Source of the DNA: Methanohalophilus halophilus
GTDB lineage: Archaea > Halobacteriota > Methanosarcinia > Methanosarcinales > Methanosarcinaceae
DNA length: 64,000 nucleotides
Direction: 5' to 3'
NCBI RefSeq assembly: GCF_001889405.1
Contig: NZ_CP017921.1
Coordinates: 1,006,057-1,070,056 of the forward strand
Shown here: positions 20,347 through 58,483 of the stretch, piece after piece
Layout of the letters: every line of letters begins with the position of its first letter
Position numbering within the stretch: the stretch's first letter is position 1
The notes under the pieces: model-generated
Seen by the model: only the letters and a program-made list of their open reading frames with translations
The model's database searches: none
What the model was told of the DNA's origin: nothing
Made by a program: the position numbers and the translations under genes

Positions 20347-20604
20347 TTATTTTTTACTGGATTTTTTGTGGAGTTCAAAAACAATAATATTTTTTATGTT
20401 TGTTTCAATGAATTCCTGCAAAACCAAATGGGCTATCTTTTCTTCAGTTACTGTACCCTCTACTTCCATATTGTTTATCAAATAACTCAACATCTGGCTG
20501 CCATCATTGAATGTGGGTTTGAATTCCATCGATTTAACTACCACATCATGATAAGCGGTTTTCTTGCAATGAGGACAATTTGTCCGAATAAACATTTTAC
20601 TCAT
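20347..20604 (-). CDS. Small CxxC protein, hypothetical
   Basis: The 85-residue frame starts SKMFIRTNCPHCKKTAYHDV, with one CxxC that could bind metal or be redox active. The rest is mixed helix and strand, ending in a basic tail. No ribosome binding site precedes the ATG. A T/A-rich stretch about 25 nt upstream could serve a leaderless transcript. An overlapping plus-strand frame has poor composition. I do not recognise the family. Confidence 0.5.
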   Translation of the reverse strand: MSKMFIRTNCPHCKKTAYHDVVVKSMEFKPTFNDGSQMLSYLINNMEVEGTVTEEKIAHLVLQEFIETNIKNIIVFELHKKSSKK

Positions 20605-21047
20605 CAGTCGAAATTTGATAGTTTATTTTTATAATAAAAATATAAAATATGTATTAAGCAGGATGAAAGTAAAAATATTATTTATGATTGAATTTATAAA
20701 TTATATATTTTATTTATTTGGTTTTATTTCTTGCTAATAGAGCAATGAATAAATTTTGCTATATAAAATAAATTAATATTTTAGTAATTAATATTAAAGT
20801 AAGAAAAATGAATATATTATAGGATTGATACATTTTGTTTTCATTCAGATAATGTGTAAGGTCCTTACCTTCGTTTTCTTTGTACTAAATCCATCATTTA
20901 AATTATTATATACATCCAAAATTTTATATTTCTAAATGTTGTAAGCAAGGACCATTGGCAAACAAAATGGAATTTTCTCCCTAATTTAGCAATAAAATGA
21001 ATACATAATAATTTGAATTGATCATTTGTTAAAAAATTAGAACGGTT
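20605..21047. other. AT-rich intergenic region at the island's left border
   Basis: About 440 nt of very AT-rich DNA without a credible frame on either strand. It marks a sharp change of composition from the genes to the left. I looked for a copy of the tRNA-Ser 3' end as an attachment site and saw none. Confidence 0.6.
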
Positions 21048-22841
21048 ATGATCGAAATGGATGACACACAAAACCTAGTTTCTACTATTCAAACTATGAA
21101 AGATAGAGGAATTTTTAAATCATTTATAGATTATATTAGATTCCCTTTCTATCGCAATTTAGAAAAAAACACAAAGATAGATTTTGATTTCCCTCTAACA
21201 GTTTTTGTAGGCCAAAATGGATGTGGAAAAAGTTCAACGCTTCAGGCATTATATGGATGTCCAAAGGGTAAAAGTGTAGGGAATTTTTGGTTCTCGACTA
21301 AAGTAGATCCGATTGGAGAAGATGAAGAAAGAGCTGCTTTAATCTACTCTTATAATGATTCATCAGGAACGCAATGTGAAGTCCTCAAGTCCAGAATGAA
21401 AAAAGGTTCTAATCCTGATTATTGGGAACCAAGCCGTCCTCTAAAAAAATATGATATGGTAACCCCTCCAGATGGAGGTATGGACAGATATCCAGCTATA
21501 GAAAAAGAAGTCTTATATCTTGATTTCCGTTCAATATTAAGTGCTTTTGACAAATATTTTTATTATCAAAAGCCCCTCAATTTGAAATCCAAAACTAAAC
21601 AAGATTATTTACGTAATCGTTCCTCTTTGCTCAAATCCGTAATTGATGATAATATTATCAAAAAAGTTGGATCCAGGAAACAAAATCGTATCCCTACTGA
21701 CTTTTCAACAGAAGAATTAGAAATAATGTCATCAATATTGGGGAAAAAATATCACAAGGGAAAACTCATTTATCACAAATTTTTTAAAGATTGGGGCAAT
21801 TCAATTATATTTGATACATCAGAGTTGGCATATTCTGAAGCTTTTGCAGGAAGTGGAGAATCTGCTGTTGCAATATTAGTCCATGAAATGTTAAAAGTTG
21901 AAAATGATTCCCTTATTTTACTGGATGAGCCGGAAATGTCTTTGCATCCTGGAGCACAAAAGAAACTGAAAAATTTTATATTAGAGCAAATTAAAAAGAA
22001 ACATTTACAGGTTGTAATATCAACTCACTCAGCAACTCTAATTGAAGGTCTCCCTTCTCCAGCAATTAAAGTTTTTACTCAACTACCAAATGGTAAATTT
22101 AATGTCAGAAACAAAAGTCTTCCAGATGAAGCCTTTTATTATATAGGTCAATCAATAAGTTCAACGAAAAAAATCATTGTTGAAGATCAATTAGCTATGG
22201 ATATTATAAAAGCTGTAATTGATGAAATTGGAGAAGACTGTGCTTCTATATTTGATATTGAATTTTACCCTGGTGGCCATTCAATAATAAAATCTGATTT
22301 TATAAGAGTTTATAGCCAAGATGAAAGTAATGTTTTTATTATTTTTGACGGGGATCAGTATCCAACTACGTATCCTTTAGATACAAGCGAAATTCCTGTA
22401 GGGTAGAATGGAGAAAACATTATCAATTGTTTTGAAAATAGTATTAAAGAACAAACTGGTATAAATATAGATTTTCATCCAAATGGTGATGGAAATAGAG
22501 GTAACCAAGAAGAAAAAATATACTTAATGAAAAAGTATATTGAGTATTATAGAGATAACGTATTTTACCTACCTGAAGTAACCCCTGAAGCTATAATTTG
22601 GGATGAAGATTTTGCAAAAAATAATATTTCAATAATGAATATAGAAAATAAAGATGATATTGCTAGCGAAATAAATGAACTTTCTAATTATAAAGAGAAA
22701 TTTATGCGATACTCTCAAGTAATGTTTGGTACAGCAAATGTAGAAAGTGCATATCGACAATTCTTGACAAATTGGATCAATAAAAAAGATTACAATTACA
22801 ATAAGATTGTTCAGATTATAAATGCAATAAAGAATAAATAA
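21048..22841 (+). CDS. OLD-like AAA ATPase/TOPRIM nuclease with in-frame TAG codon
   Basis: One reading frame of 598 codons is interrupted only by TAG at 22404-22406 (codon 453). The first part has Walker A GQNGCGKSS (residues 55-63), an ABC-like signature (SGESAVAILVHEML), Walker B SLILLDEPEMSLHPG and VVISTHSATLIEGL. It then enters a TOPRIM domain (IIVEDQLAMDI, then FIIFDGDQ). The frame continues after TAG with NGENIINCFENS and about 145 codons to TAA. OLD/GajA-like proteins are DNA nucleases of phage defence. The host decodes TAG as pyrrolysine in mttB and mtbB, so readthrough is possible; a Trp or Gln codon mutated to TAG is equally possible. Confidence 0.75.
22404..22406 (+). other. In-frame TAG codon inside the AAA/TOPRIM gene
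   Basis: The amber codon lies just after the DxD of the TOPRIM domain. The frame is open on both sides with similar codon use and no frameshift. No other chromosomal gene checked in the window uses TAG as its terminator. Confidence 0.85.
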
Positions 22842-22953
22842 TTGTTTCAAATAACTCCATATATACCTATATATCGAGAAAGATTTTCAATTCATTAACA
22901 CAACTAAGCATCATCGTCATACTTCTTCATAGATTGGAATTTTGGTTTTTCCA

Positions 22954-23436
22954 TCATTCCACATCCTCCTCTACCTTAAACTCCGTATAAACCGGATAGT
23001 GATCTGAAACATCAGTCGTCAATTCCTCATCTAAATCATATTCCAGATCATACCTGAATACTCCGGCTTCCCCGGTAAAATCAGCAGAATCCGTCAGGAC
23101 AATCCTGTCATAGGTGTAATCCGTGTTCTTTGTGGTTGTATCGATGGAATCATCAATTACCCAGGTATATTCATCAATATCTGATGTGGAATCTTCATCA
23201 AAATAAGATCCGTCTGCGTTGAAGTCCTCAATTATAATGAAGTCTCCTTCCATTAAATCAACAAGTTCAACAACATTTCTATAGTCCTTACTTGTATACT
23301 CTTTGATCAATACCAACGTCAGTAACTGATGTTGAGTATATTTTCGTTTGGAATACTTACAACTGTAGATTGGAAGATGGGATCTTCCAGCTACAGACAT
23401 AGCTGTATTGATAAAGTTTAAGTAATCGCTTGACAA
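22954..23436 (-). pseudogene. Chimeric remnant: transposase N-terminus joined to nuclease C-terminus
   Basis: The first about 60 residues (KYSKRKYTQHQLLTLVLIKE, then YRNVVELVDLM) match the beginning of an IS transposase common in Methanosarcinales. From about residue 63 the frame turns into the C-terminal part of an endonuclease/exonuclease/phosphatase fold: FIIIEDFNADGSYFDED, then DYTYDRIVLT, then DVSDHYPVY. Neither part is complete. The join probably comes from an insertion followed by deletion. It is unlikely to make a working protein. No clear terminal inverted repeats remain. Confidence 0.65.
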
Positions 23437-23960
23437 AACACATTTATCCCCTTTGTGTTTTTATACCCAAAATCACATTTGGCGGACTCTTTTTATAAAA
23501 TTGATAATGTATTAGTGGAAGTTAGAGGAAAGGGTTTCTACAGAGCCAAAATATTATCTACCAATGGATGCTACATAAATTGGATAAAGAGGCCTTTAAA
23601 TGCAACTTCAAAAAATCGAAGATTGGCACCCTCAAATGGGATGCTTGCAAGGATTGTGGGCACTACAAAACAGATGTTTGTAAGTTCTCATCCTCCACCA
23701 TTTTTGATTATGGTTTGAAATTGTTGGGCCAGTGATGTACTGTTCACTATTCGACAAAGGATACTAACCTAGTCCCCTAAAAAAGGGCATATCCAACAGC
23801 ATGCCTAAAATTTCCTTTTTTACCAATCCGGCATAAATGGGCCATATTAAATGTTTCTGAACATAGGAATCACAAATGAACATAATGGCAGAGAATGAGT
23901 AAATCAGTTGGGTGATAAAATTAGTTAAATATGAACGCTGCAAATATGGTCGTGGTAACA
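23437..23960. other. Degenerate region with gene debris
   Basis: About 520 nt with only short frames. One plus-strand stretch (about 23561-23734) encodes a fragment with CKDCGHYKTDVC, a Cys pattern that could come from a zinc-binding protein, and stops at TGA. I cannot assign it. The region is probably leftover insertion-sequence or island DNA between the chimeric remnant and vsr. Confidence 0.5.
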
Positions 23961-24407
23961 ATGGTTGACGTTCACACAAAAGAACAAAGAAGTTACAATA
24001 TGTCCATGGTGAAGTCGAAGGACACAAAACCCGAGTTGTTACTCAGAAAATATATTTATTCTAAGGGTTTGAGAGGGTACAGAGTAAATCTCAAATTTCC
24101 CGGTAAACCCGACATAGTATTTACAAAATTTAGAGTGGCGATTTTTGTTGACGGTTGTTTTTGGCATAAATGCCCACTTTGCTTTTCTATGCCTAAATCC
24201 AATATCGAATTCTGGGAAGAGAAAATCAATAAAAATGTTGAAAGAGACAGAAAAGTAAACAAAGAACTTTTAGATATGGGGTATCAAGTAATAAGGTTCT
24301 GGGAACATGAAATCTTGAAGAATTTGGATGAATGTTATCTTGTAATTCTTAAAGCTCTGCAAAAAAGAGGCCTTAATATACAAAACAGAACTGCAGGAGG
24401 CAAATGA
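23961..24407 (+). CDS. vsr: Vsr-type very short patch repair endonuclease
   Basis: The 148-residue protein has the Vsr signatures MVKSKDTKPELLLRKYI, then FPGKPDIVF (catalytic Asp), VDGCFWHKCP (metal-binding His/Cys) and FWEEKINKNVERDRKV. It nicks 5' of the T in T:G mismatches left by deamination of 5-methylcytosine. In some restriction systems Vsr-like enzymes act as nickases. The ATG at 23961 is chosen; ATGs at 23931 and 23946 are alternatives. The stop is 1 nt before the dcm start, so the genes are coupled. Confidence 0.93.
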   Translation: MVDVHTKEQRSYNMSMVKSKDTKPELLLRKYIYSKGLRGYRVNLKFPGKPDIVFTKFRVAIFVDGCFWHKCPLCFSMPKSNIEFWEEKINKNVERDRKVNKELLDMGYQVIRFWEHEILKNLDECYLVILKALQKRGLNIQNRTAGGK

Positions 24408-24408
24408 A

Positions 24409-25461
24409 ATGAAAAAAGATATTGTAGCGGTAGATCTGTTTTGCGGTGCAGGCGGTTTAACAAGAGGTCTTTTAGATGCAGGTATTCAGGTTAAAAAAGG
24501 ATATGATATTGAGGAGAGATTAAAGGAAACATATGAGAAAAATAATGAAGGATCCGAATATCACTGTACTGATATCCGTAAGGTAAGCGGAAATTCTTTA
24601 CTGCAGGATATTGATCTGGGTAATAATTATTTACTTCTTGCCGGATGTGCTCCTTGCCAGCCCTTTTCATCCATAAATAAAAGTACTAATGATAAAGACG
24701 GAAGGAAGATCCTTTTACTGGAGTTTGGAAGGTTGATTGAAGAAGTACGACCCGATCTTATATTTGTGGAAAACGTACCAGGATTAAAGAATGGTAAAGG
24801 AAAATACGTATTGCAGCAATTCGAGCAGATTTTGAAAAATATGGGTTACCATTACATTTATGAAACATTAAATGCAAAAGAATTTGGTGTGCCACAGAAA
24901 AGAAAAAGATTTATTCTGTTGGCATCTAAGCACGGAAATGTAGATCTACCTTCCCCTACTCACGGACCAAAAAGTCCTGGTAACCGTCCCTATGTTACGG
25001 TGAGGAAAGCAATTTCAAAATATCCTCCTGTTACAGCGGGTGGGATATACAGCAAAATTCCGAATCATAACGCACCTAACATATCTGAGAAAAACAGGAT
25101 GAGGCTTAAGCAAGTAACAAAAGACGGAGGTTCCAGGACTGACTGGTCTGAAGACCTGGAGTTGTACTGTCATAAAAATCATCGTGGTCATACTGATGTT
25201 TATGGCAGAATGAAGTGGGATGATGTTGCACCAACGTTAACATGTAAATGTACAAGTATTTCAAACGGACGTTTCGGTCACCCCACTCAAACCCGAGCAA
25301 TATCTGTCAGGGAAGCTGCAGCTATTCAGACATTTGACGATGATTACATATTTTACGGCCCTATGAGTGTTATTACAAAATGGGTTGGAAACGCTGTGCC
25401 GGTAAAGTTTGCAAAAATATTCGGGAGTCATTTTATTAGTCACATCGGGGAGATTGAATGA
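24409..25461 (+). CDS. dcm: DNA (cytosine-5) methyltransferase
   Basis: The 350-residue enzyme has all core motifs: I VDLFCGAGGLTRGL (residues 8-21), IV GCAPCQPFSS with the catalytic Cys, VI ENVPG, VIII QKRKRFILLAS, and X VGNAVPVKF near the C-terminus. The target recognition region lies between VIII and IX and is complete in length. It methylates cytosine in a specific site that cannot be read from sequence. It lies between vsr and the helicase/nuclease; its TGA overlaps the next ATG. Confidence 0.96.
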   Translation: MKKDIVAVDLFCGAGGLTRGLLDAGIQVKKGYDIEERLKETYEKNNEGSEYHCTDIRKVSGNSLLQDIDLGNNYLLLAGCAPCQPFSSINKSTNDKDGRKILLLEFGRLIEEVRPDLIFVENVPGLKNGKGKYVLQQFEQILKNMGYHYIYETLNAKEFGVPQKRKRFILLASKHGNVDLPSPTHGPKSPGNRPYVTVRKAISKYPPVTAGGIYSKIPNHNAPNISEKNRMRLKQVTKDGGSRTDWSEDLELYCHKNHRGHTDVYGRMKWDDVAPTLTCKCTSISNGRFGHPTQTRAISVREAAAIQTFDDDYIFYGPMSVITKWVGNAVPVKFAKIFGSHFISHIGEIE

Positions 25462-28214
25462 ATTTTACTGATAATCAACTTAAAGCAATAAATCATAAAG
25501 AAGGAAACCTCAAAATTGTTGCCTGTGCAGGCTCCGGAAAAACAACTGTGATGGCAGAAAGGATTGCAAAGCTAGTAAGTGAAGGAGCTGACAGAGACAA
25601 AATAGTTGCATTCACATATACTGATAAAGCCGCAGACTCCTTAAAATTCAATATAAGGGAGAAACTTGAAAAATGGTCCCCCGATGAACCCCATCTTGGG
25701 GGCATGTATATAGGAACAATACACTCATTTGCTTTTAAAAGACTGAGGGACATTATTCCAAAATACAGGAGTTATGAGGTTCTTGATGAAGTTAAACGAA
25801 TAATCTGGGTGCACAAATATAAAGGTGAAATAGGACTCGATTCCATAAGAAAAGATAAATTGCTAATTGACTCTATCAAACGCTTTTTGAATACAGTGGA
25901 TATAATAAGAGATAATCAGATACCTGCAGAACGTTTGAATGCAATTCCCGATTTTATGGAGGTATATGAAAACTATCTTAATATTTTAGAACGTGAGAAA
26001 TATCTTGATTTTTCAGGAATCCTCCATAAACTTGTTAGTGTTTTAGAATCGAATTCAACCTTACTGACTGATCTAAAAGAAAGCATAGATTATTTGGTTG
26101 TGGATGAATATCAGGATGTAAATAAAATACAGGAAAAATTAATCTATTTGATGGCAGGGGAAAACGGTAATCTCTGTGTTGTCGGTGACGATGATCAGTC
26201 AATTTTTGAGTTCCAAGGTGCTGATGTAAACAATATACTTCAGTTTGAGAACAAATATTGTAACGTGACCACAGTCAAACTTGAAGAAAATTTCAGATGC
26301 CCTGAAGAAGTGATTGAAGCTTCCAGAGACCTTGTGAAAAGGAATAGAAACAGAATAACAAAGAGAATGGTAGCTGGAAATATTGGAGACGAAATTAATA
26401 AGTCAGATTCAGGTGACCTGTATAAAGTTGAATTTGATAACCAGAAAGAAGAGTCAAGTTTTATTATTGATAAAATAAACGATTTAAGAGGATGCGAATA
26501 CAAAGATGAAGATGTATTGAGAGGTCTCGATTATGGGGATATGGCAATTATCGTTAGATCAAGGCTCTCTGCACAACATATTGTCAATGCTTTGAGAGAG
26601 CAACAAATACCTTTCACATTTAAAGGTACCGGTGGTCTTTTTGAAAGGCCCGAAATCAAATTCATACAAGCAATATTTTATTATATTGCAGATTATTCTT
26701 TTTCCAGAGAGGAACCACCGGTTGATTTAAATCATCTTAGAAATAGTTTTGAATCTTTAGACATCAATCATTTAGAATGGGGTCAATTATCTCAACAATT
26801 TGAAGAGTTGAAATCCTATATCAAATCCATCACTCCTTCAAATCCAATAGCACCTCAAAGAAGGACTTTTTTACAAGAATTTTATTACCAATTAATGGGA
26901 ATATTGGAAGTTGATAGTGACCACTATTCAGAAGACTTACTGTATGACTTTGGAAGGTTCAGTAAGTTGGTTGCAGAATTCGAATCTATACATGGATGGA
27001 TAAACTATGGCTCATTCATACAATTCGTTACCTTTTTGGCAATTTATGCTCAAAACAAAACAGATGAAGGAGGAATTGATGACCCCAGGAATACTAATTC
27101 AGTCAACGTTTTGACCATTCATCAGGCAAAAGGACTTGAATTTCCACTTGTATTTATACCGGATGTGTCTACCGGAAGGGTTCCTTCAAGAAATAGGAAT
27201 AGAAAACCTAAGACACATTTTGAAGAGGGAATTATTGATCTTGATTCCTTTTGTTCTGGAGATGAGGGAGAAAGGCGCTTATTTTATGTTGCTACGACAA
27301 GAACAAAGAAATTTTTGTTTATGGCCCGGGCAAAAGACAACGGAGGAAAAAACCTAGTTTCCAGGTCAAAATATTATACTGAATTTGATCATGAAATTAT
27401 GGAATATAATAATAAGCCTGATCCTACGTCCAGAAATAAAATTGAACCCCAATGTAAACCGAATATGGAACTAATGCCAACCTCATTTACTGATATAAGG
27501 CATTATATTGAATGCCCTTATCGTTATCGTTTACAGCAGATGATGGGTTTCTCTCCTGTAATTAATCTTGCATATGGATATGGTTTGCAGGTACATAATT
27601 TACTTAACTATATTCATAAAACATATGGAGGAGAGCCACCCTCATTAAAAGAAATCGAATCTTTAGTAGAGTCTGACTTTTTCCTCAGATTTACCAGAGG
27701 TGAACCTTTAGAGAATATGAAACGAAAATGCAAAGAAATTATTAGTAATTATATTGAGGAATATAATGATCAATTTGAATTAAAACTGGAAACAGAAAAA
27801 CCTTTTGAATTTCCTCTAGAAGGTGCTTTAATTTCAGGTGAAATTGATTTAATTCAAAAAATAGATCCATCAAGTCAGGAAATAAAGAATGTATCTATAA
27901 TTGATTTTAAAACTGAAAAAGAAGATTATGAAAATTTTCCTCTCCTTAGAATGCAACTGAGATTATATGCAATAGCCGGAAGTAAATCCTTAGGTTTGAA
28001 TCCACTTGATGCAGGTGTACATTTCCTAACTAACAATGTAAGGAGAAATGTGAGTGTGAATCCTGATAAATTGGATGAAACAAGAGGACAGGTTGCTGAT
28101 GCCATAACAAATATAAAAAGAGGGAACTTTATCGCAACTCCTAATCATGATAAATGCAAAAACTGTGATGTGAGGTACGTTTGCAGCAATGGTAAATGCT
28201 GCAATGGTTGTTAA
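25458..28214 (+). CDS. UvrD/AddA-like helicase fused to Cas4/AddB-like Fe-S nuclease
   Basis: The 918-residue protein begins with an SF1 helicase: Walker A CAGSGKTT (residues 23-30), VVDEYQDVNK, VVGDDDQSIFEFQGA, ENFRCPEE, TIHQAKGLEFPLVF and LFYVATTRTK. The C-terminal third is a PD-(D/E)XK nuclease with GEIDLI (about 793) and DFKTEK (about 815). One Cys near residue 686 (IECPYRY) and CKNC...C near 899-910 give the four-Cys iron-staple pattern of AddB/Cas4. It probably unwinds and degrades DNA ends. The ATGA overlap with dcm shows translational coupling. In context it may be the effector of a defence module. Confidence 0.9.
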   Translation: MNFTDNQLKAINHKEGNLKIVACAGSGKTTVMAERIAKLVSEGADRDKIVAFTYTDKAADSLKFNIREKLEKWSPDEPHLGGMYIGTIHSFAFKRLRDIIPKYRSYEVLDEVKRIIWVHKYKGEIGLDSIRKDKLLIDSIKRFLNTVDIIRDNQIPAERLNAIPDFMEVYENYLNILEREKYLDFSGILHKLVSVLESNSTLLTDLKESIDYLVVDEYQDVNKIQEKLIYLMAGENGNLCVVGDDDQSIFEFQGADVNNILQFENKYCNVTTVKLEENFRCPEEVIEASRDLVKRNRNRITKRMVAGNIGDEINKSDSGDLYKVEFDNQKEESSFIIDKINDLRGCEYKDEDVLRGLDYGDMAIIVRSRLSAQHIVNALREQQIPFTFKGTGGLFERPEIKFIQAIFYYIADYSFSREEPPVDLNHLRNSFESLDINHLEWGQLSQQFEELKSYIKSITPSNPIAPQRRTFLQEFYYQLMGILEVDSDHYSEDLLYDFGRFSKLVAEFESIHGWINYGSFIQFVTFLAIYAQNKTDEGGIDDPRNTNSVNVLTIHQAKGLEFPLVFIPDVSTGRVPSRNRNRKPKTHFEEGIIDLDSFCSGDEGERRLFYVATTRTKKFLFMARAKDNGGKNLVSRSKYYTEFDHEIMEYNNKPDPTSRNKIEPQCKPNMELMPTSFTDIRHYIECPYRYRLQQMMGFSPVINLAYGYGLQVHNLLNYIHKTYGGEPPSLKEIESLVESDFFLRFTRGEPLENMKRKCKEIISNYIEEYNDQFELKLETEKPFEFPLEGALISGEIDLIQKIDPSSQEIKNVSIIDFKTEKEDYENFPLLRMQLRLYAIAGSKSLGLNPLDAGVHFLTNNVRRNVSVNPDKLDETRGQVADAITNIKRGNFIATPNHDKCKNCDVRYVCSNGKCCNGC

Positions 28215-28788
28215 ACATTCAATTCAGTTTTACATTTGGGTCATCTCACCTCGTCAATCTTCTCCCTGTCTCTTCCTTTTCTACTGAAATGAAATGTAGT
28301 CCCTGATAGTGTCTCAATGAAGTCATCTCATTGTGTCCTTAGTAAAGATATACCCATAGACTGATATCTCTCACTTGCAATAAATAGGAAATGTGAATGT
28401 CTGTGGTGGAGTTGAAAAGCAATTGGTGAGTTTATCACAATAACATTCCTCTTTTTGCCATAAACCCTATATACCCCTGCCATTTGCACTTAATATGCAT
28501 GAATCAAATCCATGCAACCACATTTTCCGAATTCTGCAACTAACCCGAAGAAGTCCATGCATTTATGTCAGGCATTCATCACGCATTCTCCTGTAGAAAA
28601 AAGCCCATAAAATTCGGGGAATGCGACAAACATCTTTCTCCTGAACTTCTGCAGGACCTCAGGAAAGAATACCACTACTACATCGGTGCCTTCTGGGCCA
28701 CACGGCTGGCAATAATGCTGGTTTCAGAATACAGGAAATTAATAAATTCAAAAATCAGATCTTACTATGTCGTTTACTTTAATTTCAG
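28215..28788. other. Intergenic stretch between island operon and tRNA-Ser
   Basis: About 570 nt without a convincing gene. A plus-strand frame from 28565 (SGIHHAFSCRKKPIKFGECD) has acceptable codon use but runs into the antisense of the tRNA and resembles nothing I know. It could be a remnant of an island gene. No direct repeat of the tRNA end was found. Confidence 0.5.
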
Positions 28789-52486: not shown

Positions 52487-53977
52487 ATGAAAGAACACTA
52501 CTATCCAGGCTCACGCCCATTGGAAGGTGTCGAACTTAATCTCTTCTCCGAAGATGATTTAAGAAAGATCCATTATGCAACAATGGAATGCTTCAAGAAC
52601 CCTGGTATTCAGGTTTCTGATGCTGAAGCAAGGCAGATCTTCAAGGAAGCCGGCTGTGAAGTCGATGAAAAGAATCAGGTCGTAAAGATCCCTGAATTCC
52701 TTGTAAACAGAGCTCTTATGGACTCTCCTTCAAAGTTTACTCTCTGGGGACGTGACAAGAAAAACAATACTGTGCAGGAGCATAAGGGTAAGGTCAACTG
52801 GACTTGCTTCGGTACTGGTGTCAAGATGTGCAACTATGAAGCACCAGGCAAGTACAAGACTGTCGATTCCGTTGAGCAAGATGTAGCAGACACCGCCAAA
52901 CTTTGTGATTGGGCAGACAACATTGACTACTACTCCCTCGCAGTATCTGCCAGAGACTGGGCAGGCAAGGGTGCACAGGATGTTCACGAAACATTCACAC
53001 CATTGACCAACACCTCAAAGCACTTCCACCACATCGATCCTGTAGGCGAAAGTGTTGAGTATTACAGGGACATGGTCCATGCCTACTATGGTGGAGACGA
53101 AGAAGAAGCTCGTAAGAAACCAATTTTCTCCATGCTTCTCTGTCCAACCAGCCCTCTTGAACTCAGCAGCAACGCATGTCAGGTTATCATAAAGGGTGCA
53201 CGCTTTGGTATCCCTGTAAATGTCCTGAGTATGGCTATGTCCGGCGGTTCATCTCCAGTATTCCGTGCTGGTACCCTCGTTACACACAATGCAGAGGTCC
53301 TTGCAGGTATCGTACTTGCACAGCTTGTAGTACCAGGTACTTCAGTATGGTATGGTAGTTCAACCACAACCTTCGACCTGAAGAGGGGTACTGCTCCAGT
53401 AGGTGCACCTGAACTTGGTCTTATCAGTGCGGCAGTCGGTAAACTTGCACAGTTCTATGGTCTTCCATCCTTTGTTGCAGGTACCTAGGCTGATGCCAAG
53501 GTCCCAGATGGCCAGGCAGGTCACGAGAAGACAATGACTACCCTGCTTCCTGCATTTTCCGGATGTAACACCCTTTATGGTGCAGGTATGCTTGAACTCG
53601 GTATGACCTTCTCTCTTGAGCAGCTCGTATTCGACAACGACATGATCGAGATGACCAAGTCCGCAATGCGTGGAATTCCTGTTGACGAACTGACCCTTGG
53701 TGTAGAATCCATCCAGAAGGTAGGAATTGGTAAGAACTTCCTTGCACACAAACAGACAAGGAACTACATTGACAGAGTATCTGATCCAAAACTCATCAAC
53801 AGGGATATGTTCGGTGACTGGGAGGCAGCAGGTTCCAAGGATCTTGCAACCGTTGCTCACGAAAAGGTTGTTGACGTCATGAAGAACCATGAAGTTACAC
53901 CTGTCGATGCTGACCTTATGAAAGACATGAAAGCTGTCATGGACAAGGCAGACGAAGATGTCAGGAACGCAATGTAA
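52487..53977 (+). CDS. mttB: Trimethylamine methyltransferase MttB with pyrrolysine
   Basis: The gene codes for 496 residues including one pyrrolysine at codon 334 (TAG at 53486-53488), the known Pyl position. Before it are [11 protein letters not shown], and after it [20 protein letters not shown] in the same frame. The protein moves one methyl group of trimethylamine to the corrinoid of MttC. The TIM-barrel length is normal. The ATG follows AGGAGTGAAAGGAAA. The TAG is not a frameshift or nonsense because the whole downstream part is conserved. Confidence 0.98.
53486..53488 (+). other. Pyrrolysine codon (TAG) of mttB
   Basis: In-frame amber codon at position 334 between FVAGT and ADAKV. The reading frame stays open for 162 further codons. 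It matches the site described for MttB of Methanosarcina barkeri. Confidence 0.97.
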
Positions 53978-57079: not shown

Positions 57080-58483
57080 ATGGCAAACGAATATTTCTTA
57101 AGAATGGGAGATGGCGAGCGTATCTCCATGACCAAGGACCAGATCATTGCAGACCTCCAGGAAGGTAGTGCAGATGCAGCAGACCTTGGTAACATTCCTG
57201 AACTTTCCGGGGATGAACTTGACAAACTCGCAGATATCATAATGGATTCCAACCGCCTTGTCAGTGTCGAGCCTGGTATGGAAATCCCGGTTACCCACGA
57301 CATTGGAACCCTCAGGATCGATGGTGACCAGGGTAACAGCGGAGTAGGCATCCCATCCAGCCGTCTTACTGGCTGTATGATGCACGAGAGAGGTTTCGGT
57401 GCTGACACAATGGAATTGGGTCATATCGACTACAGTTTCAAACCTGTCAAACCAGTAATTGCCCAGGAACAGCAGGCAATGGAAGTCTGTCAGCAGAACA
57501 TGACTGTCCCCCTTCTCTACGGTGCAATGCCAAACCTTGGTCTCTATTATACACCAGATGGTCCATTCGAAAACCCTGGTGACCTCATGAAGGCTTTCAA
57601 GATCAACGAAGCCCGTGAATCCATCGAGCATGCTGGTGACCACGCAACCCGTGACATCACCTGGATCATGCAGCACCTTCAGAAAGTAGGTTGTGACGGT
57701 GTCAACTTCGATACCATCGGTGCAGCCGGTGATGGAGATGTATATGCATCCCTGTACGCAATGAAAGCACTCAGGGAAGAATTCCCTAACATCTACATCG
57801 AAGCAGGTATGGCCGGAGAATGTACCCTTGGTATGCACGGTGAACTTGAGTTCGAAGGTAAGGCTCTTGCAGGCCTCTGGCCGCATGAACAGGTGCCACT
57901 TGCTGAAGAAGCCGGTGCGAACGTGTTCGGCCCGGTCTGTAACACCAACACCAGCAAGACCTCTGCATGGAATCTTGCTCGTGCAGTAACCTTCACCAAA
58001 GCAGCCGTTTCAGCTGCAAACATCCCCTGTCATGTTGATATGGGTATGGGTGTCGGCGGTATTCCAATGTTCGAGACTCCACCGATCGATGCAGTAACCC
58101 GTGCCAGCAAGGCAATGGTTGAAGTTGCAGGTGTCGATGGTATATAGATCGGAGTTGGCGACCCAATAGGTATGCCAATCTCACACATCATGGCATCCGG
58201 TCTTACAGGTATGCGTGCAGCCGGTGACCTTGTTGCCAGGATGCAGTTCTCCGAGAACATGCGCATAAATGAAGCCAAGGACTATGTCGCCAAGAAACTC
58301 GGTGTACAGGCACTTGATCTGGGTGACGAGCACATCATGAGGGAAATCCGTGAAGACCTTGATATTGGCGTACTTACATCCGTTCCAGGATGTGCCAAAG
58401 GTATCGCATCCAAGATGAATATTGAGAAACTTCTCGATATTGACATCAACTGCTGTGACAAATTCAGGGAAATCACAGGCTAA
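57080..58483 (+). CDS. mtbB: Dimethylamine methyltransferase MtbB with pyrrolysine
   Basis: The protein has 467 residues including pyrrolysine at codon 356 (TAG, 58145-58147), the known site. EVAGVDGI precedes and [18 protein letters not shown] follows. It demethylates dimethylamine and hands the methyl to MtbC. The start follows GGTGATTATTT. Length matches the family exactly. It is the last gene of the methylamine cluster; an antiporter follows after 158 nt. Confidence 0.98.
58145..58147 (+). other. Pyrrolysine codon (TAG) of mtbB
   Basis: In-frame TAG at codon 356 between VDGI and QIGVGDP; conserved sequence continues for 111 codons. Confidence 0.97.

Follow-up and report, generated by a model that had tools for sequence, protein, structure and literature searches.

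An OLD-type nuclease gene of Methanohalophilus halophilus interrupted only by a TAG codon that is probably read as pyrrolysine

The nucleases of the OLD family, with P2 Old and Thermus OLD in Class 1 and GajA of the Gabija system in Class 2, consist of an ABC-type ATPase followed by a TOPRIM domain, and their systems include a UvrD helicase or a retron. In BpOLD, D455 and D457 constitute the DxD motif, T506 and E508 bind metal B and K562 is catalytic, while deletion of the helical domain impairs nicking and cleavage (PMC6755086). YbjD, an OLD protein without a TOPRIM domain, can keep anti-phage effects (PMC13261556), and the plasmid ATPase-TOPRIM defence proteins HEC-04 and IbfA have been reported to restrict phages (PMC12111858). 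Equally, Methanosarcinaceae have been described to avoid amber as a stop codon and to cope by codon avoidance rather than by regulation (PMC3941956), and among genes other than methyltransferases a few cases with an in-frame TAG, a TetR-type regulator and transposases of Methanosarcina acetivorans, have been listed before (PMC3639795).

The 64,000-nucleotide stretch of Methanohalophilus halophilus DNA analysed here (the window) contains a nuclease gene of OLD type which, like these M. acetivorans genes, combines an in-frame TAG with a coding continuation in a member of the Methanosarcinaceae but which is a defence gene, while those reported were not (PMC3639795). The gene and its surroundings comprise the following features.

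20382..28783, no strand: low-GC (0.29-0.38) acquired island, the flanks of which lie 5 bp apart in the same-genus genome G005
21048..22841, + strand: OLD-type ATPase/TOPRIM nuclease gene at full length, 597 codons, with codon 453 a TAG (putatively read as pyrrolysine)
21048..22406, + strand: alternative short product of 452 residues, predicted if the TAG terminates, with the ATPase domain and an incomplete TOPRIM domain
22404..22406, + strand: TAG in frame as codon 453, within a variable loop leading from the DxD strand to helix 455-470
22407..22838, + strand: part after the TAG, residues 454-597, predicted to form the helical portion of the TOPRIM domain and including the invariant P513, E514 and K549
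23931..24407, + strand: Vsr-type endonuclease gene (PF03852 and TIGR00632 above cut-off)
24409..25461, + strand: C5-cytosine DNA methyltransferase gene (PF00145), probable partner of the nuclease
25458..28214, + strand: gene for a UvrD-type helicase with a C-terminal PD-(D/E)XK nuclease domain, within the island

The frame on the + strand (21048-22841) starts with ATG, ends with TAA and has 597 codons, and the TAG at 22404-22406 is its sole interruption, as a preliminary description of this DNA had already read from the open reading frames. The continuation past the TAG reported there is equally present, although it amounts to 144 codons plus the TAA and not to 145 codons. These 144 codons are free of stops of any kind, and in 200,000 first-order Markov simulations the stretch never remained open. 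The TAG follows the second aspartate of D434-G-D436 by 17 residues and thus lies, as described, soon after the DxD of the TOPRIM domain.

Profiles, motifs and structural matches agree with the first view of an AAA/TOPRIM defence-type gene and place the product among OLD-type ATPase/TOPRIM proteins. The N-terminal part matches Pfam AAA_15 and AAA_21 above cut-off; the ATPase motifs (Walker A at G55-S63, signature at G268-E271, Walker B at D293-E296 and H-loop at H327) vary little or not at all among 24 homologues, and E379, D434 and D436 of the TOPRIM domain are invariant in the homologue alignment (24 sequences). T512-P513-E514 and K549 follow the DxD and are all encoded 3' of the TAG, so that Walker A, signature, Walker B, H-loop, Glu, DxD, T-x-E and Lys occur in the same order as in the OLD family. 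By this order and by conservation, not by superposition, T512/E514 would correspond to the metal-B ligands (T506/E508 in BpOLD) and K549 to the catalytic lysine (K562) of OLD nucleases. A structure model built from 24 sequences (pLDDT 85.2, pTM 0.74; a prediction without alignment, at pLDDT 34, was unusable) puts residue 453 into a loop preceding helix 455-470 and folds the tail as a helical domain. In a Foldseek comparison of this model with the PDB, Thermus OLD 6p74 ranked first (E 9e-16) and GajA 8u7i second (E 2e-12), both structural alignments having 16% sequence identity.

The in-frame TAG sets the nuclease apart from known members of the OLD family; equally, its relatives pair with a C5-cytosine methyltransferase, unlike the OLD systems with a UvrD helicase or a retron. 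An assignment to Gabija was rejected, as no UvrD-like helicase stands directly beside the nuclease gene, the UvrD/PD-(D/E)XK gene being located 2.6 kb off behind the Vsr and methyltransferase genes. The best PADLOC profile is HEC-04 (E 9e-30), with which, as with IbfA, the two-domain layout is shared; an assignment to HEC-04/IbfA was equally rejected, as the best stretch covers only profile positions 157-386 of 494 and the nuclease is about 80-100 residues longer with another C-terminus. Three relatives of the nuclease likewise match about half of the HEC-04 profile in their best stretch.

Close homologues were found in neither 393 genomes of the phylum nor 186 of the order, so that conservation of the TAG in other pyrrolysine-decoding species has no counterpart to be read from in these genomes; protein searches of the genus, order, phylum, plasmids, phages and a spirochaete phylum gave distant ATPases only. 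A DNA search of E. coli genomes identified a prophage homologue of 596 amino acids, annotated as 'ATP-dependent nuclease', with 41% identity over 538 residues across the TAG in a pairwise alignment. A profile from this protein and one further homologue subsequently retrieved 31 viral-contig loci, the gene being unbroken up to the contig end in all but one. The homologues belong to phages, prophages and bacteria, the majority of which would be unable to decode pyrrolysine. In the 27 homologues aligned across the TAG (among them L165, which ends with its contig after the site), Glu (9), Gln (7), Asp (5), Leu (2) and Lys, Thr, Ala and Gly (1 each) stand opposite residue 453, counts that are inflated by near-identical viral contigs; the E. 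coli prophage protein has Gln at this residue or one residue off in the pair alignment. Of the TAG, Trp, Gln or Lys anticipated at this site, Gln and Lys were thus seen, while Trp and a TAG or any other stop occurred in none of the 27, and most sequences have Glu, Gln or Asp. Residue 453 is a variable polar position in a loop of varying length outside the active site.

That the codons beyond the TAG belong to the same protein, as initially proposed, is borne out by homologues which align across it and by tail residues (P513, E514 and K549) invariant in 24 sequences. The tail of the nuclease, with a tail/head identity ratio of 0.49 compared to 0.45-0.63 in other members, gives no indication of excess decay. 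Scored alone against a distant ATPase-TOPRIM profile, the tail reached 1.0 bit, a value matched by 138 of 936 shuffles, this profile being too distant for the purpose.

The genetic surroundings mark the gene as horizontally acquired and include a probable partner. While the genome has a GC content of about 42%, the island ranges from 0.29 to 0.38; its site is empty in G005 and holds other cargo, including another AAA-type ATPase, in four further kin genomes, which points to an insertion hotspot across the genus. The nuclease gene is absent from the other genomes of the genus. At the homologue loci (L135, L142-L173) a C5-cytosine methyltransferase gene lies less than 100 bp from the nuclease gene in 25 of 28 cases, a count that includes some near-identical loci and one with a broken nuclease gene. 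The homologues thus belong to a phage-borne nuclease/C5-methyltransferase pair that likely has a restriction-modification-like role. In the window the C5-methyltransferase gene follows 1.6 kb 3' of the nuclease gene, after a repeat remnant and the Vsr gene; its product has 43-47% identity to the closer nuclease-paired methyltransferases and 42-44% to others from plasmids, and a methyltransferase tree did not place it. In the window, too, the two would likely form a pair, although the distance and the intervening elements count against it.

The use of TAG in the genome provides the context for codon 453. The preliminary description had pointed to in-frame TAGs in mttB and mtbB, and indeed each of these genes (52487-53977 and 57080-58483, matching PF06253 and PF09505, respectively) has one, while pylS (421482-422198, 369 bits, over cut-off) and an adjoining tRNA-Pyl with anticodon CTA are encoded in the same genome. 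In a census with a simple codon model, covering 761 genes in sampled stretches of 864 kb (43%) of the genome, 12 genes (1.6%) terminate at TAG, compared to a share of 17% for TAG among off-frame stops. In six of the 12 the coding sequence carries on beyond the TAG (mtmB, mttB, mtbB, the nuclease gene, and one Trm5-like and one TPR gene); the other six are two with an immediate second stop behind the TAG, one at a locus end, pylB and two with short extensions. A small sample of another genus (G017) equally had only 3 of 129 genes ending at TAG, so that the scarcity of such ends extends beyond this genus. These counts indicate that TAG has for the most part turned into a sense codon in the genus. 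Full reassignment of TAG to pyrrolysine has reportedly been found in some archaea in 2025; as there, TAG mostly behaves as a sense codon here, but some TAGs, for example that of pylB, may still end genes. The pylB gene (L040:2201-3262, L088:2385-3446) ends with TAG in both genomes concerned, and the next stop comes 39 codons later; this TAG may be a genuine gene end, the extension being without coding character.

In-frame TAGs outside methylamine metabolism are seen in further genes. The TPR gene (G000:C1:1368701-1369324, L174; also L175-L181) has two, in the context YS*LK*PEKAI, in seven of eight genomes of the genus, and the eighth genome has one. This holds down to 50-51% protein identity, while almost all members from other genera have sense codons instead of TAG. 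Its dN/dS in six close genomes is 0.20 after the TAGs and 0.03 before, which indicates purifying selection also on the part after them. The gene is a strong candidate for a pyrrolysine protein outside methylamine metabolism and offers direct comparative evidence of TAG translation beyond this metabolism in the genus. The Trm5-like tRNA methyltransferase gene (G000:C1:514771-515589, L097) carries TAG at a position that is Ser (TCN) in five kin genomes, with the frame intact on both sides.

We consider it fairly probable that the full-length nuclease is produced by reading the TAG as pyrrolysine and that it cuts DNA under the control of ATP, probably as the nuclease half of a pair guarded by methylation. 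Readthrough is the best explanation because TAG is barely a terminator here and TAG-containing genes continue as coding; of readthrough and simple nonsense, the two options initially offered, TAG depletion and the conserved tail favour the former. A small defence island of low GC would have brought the gene into this methylotrophic methanogen. As TAG is largely a sense codon in this genus, tRNA-Pyl would insert pyrrolysine at codon 453 in at least a large proportion of translation events, and, as residue 453 falls into a variable polar loop, pyrrolysine would be tolerated rather than used chemically. In the part after the TAG, T512/E514 would bind metal B and K549 would be the catalytic lysine, and the nuclease would cut while the C5-cytosine methyltransferase marks self DNA in a restriction-modification-like module. 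Pyrrolysine insertion, nuclease activity and the restriction-modification role are what we infer from comparison of genes and genomes.

The main rival, regarded as unlikely, is that a dispensable acquired gene has recently suffered a nonsense mutation, by which the TAG terminates translation and a young pseudogene encodes 452 residues without metal-B ligands and catalytic lysine. Homologues have sense codons at the site, mostly for Glu, Gln or Asp, and a single substitution in CAG or GAG would yield TAG; none of them has a TAG there, and other genomes of the genus do without the gene. Translation that stops at the TAG would probably give a product inactive as a nuclease, because the metal-B ligands and the catalytic lysine lie after it, and removal of the helical domain in BpOLD impairs both nuclease functions (PMC6755086). 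A recent mutation would also leave an equally undecayed tail, and a few genes, such as pylB and the short-extension and tandem-stop cases, may still end at TAG. Against this, the TAG is the sole lesion in 598 codons (TAA included), the tail residues are retained, TAG rarely serves as a terminator here, and it is decoded in the methyltransferases and, to judge from conservation and selection, in the TPR gene. The preliminary description had proposed that Trp or Gln in homologues, together with a lack of full-length protein in cells, would signify a pseudogene; Gln by itself does not suffice for this, as most homologue hosts would not decode pyrrolysine and a change from CAG to TAG would here be a missense change to pyrrolysine.

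Still less probable is a selected methylamine switch, in which the TAG is read as pyrrolysine in part and terminates in part, a full-length nuclease being formed dependent on pyrrolysine and an ATPase-only form otherwise, so that the strength of restriction tracks pyrrolysine supply. Pyrrolysine is considered to be inserted in competition with release factor, and in one clostridial species UAG codes for it on trimethylamine only (PMC8211752); equally, the short form could be active, compare YbjD without TOPRIM domain (PMC13261556). However, no homologue has a TAG at this variable-loop site, and Methanosarcinaceae are described as avoiding the codon rather than regulating it (PMC3941956). Since TAG is near-absent as a terminator and occurs in frame in unrelated genes, dependence on pyrrolysine is not peculiar to the nuclease; any dependence on pyrrolysine supply would be common to the nuclease, the TPR and other TAG genes. 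The link between growth on methylamine and defence, suggested at the outset, is therefore not supported, with TAG in the unrelated TPR and Trm5-like genes and residue 453 in a variable loop. That the TAG at 22404-22406 stems from faulty sequencing or assembly of an otherwise ordinary gene is hardly credible, the nuclease gene being present in one assembly only but the genome being a single contig and other in-frame TAGs being confirmed by independent genomes of the genus.

With pyrrolysine as the preferred reading of codon 453, the defence nuclease, the TPR protein with its two genus-wide TAGs and the Trm5-like methyltransferase would join the candidate pyrrolysine proteins outside methylamine metabolism, and, in a lineage with a near-sense TAG, what would otherwise be a nonsense change in an acquired gene could be taken up as a missense change. 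Equally, the pair of OLD-type nuclease and C5-cytosine methyltransferase appears to be widespread and phage-borne and is without a dedicated model in the defence library used, PADLOC 2.0.0, in which the nucleases of the phage and prophage pairs have partial matches only.

Some further observations concern the island and the genus. At the island site (window 20382-28783; L119-L122), the differing cargo of genus members, as recognized by eye, includes genes for AAA ATPase, SMC-like ATPase, HSP90-like, helicase and glycosylase-like proteins. The repeat remnant at 23249-23557 of the window, between the nuclease and the Vsr/methyltransferase genes, has many copies across the genomes of the genus and is probably a degraded insertion element. 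Finally, the gene at G007:C1:500003-500671 (L182), which we take to be citrate synthase-like and for which no match was found in the window's genome, has an in-frame TAG in one kin genome, with two others having no stop.
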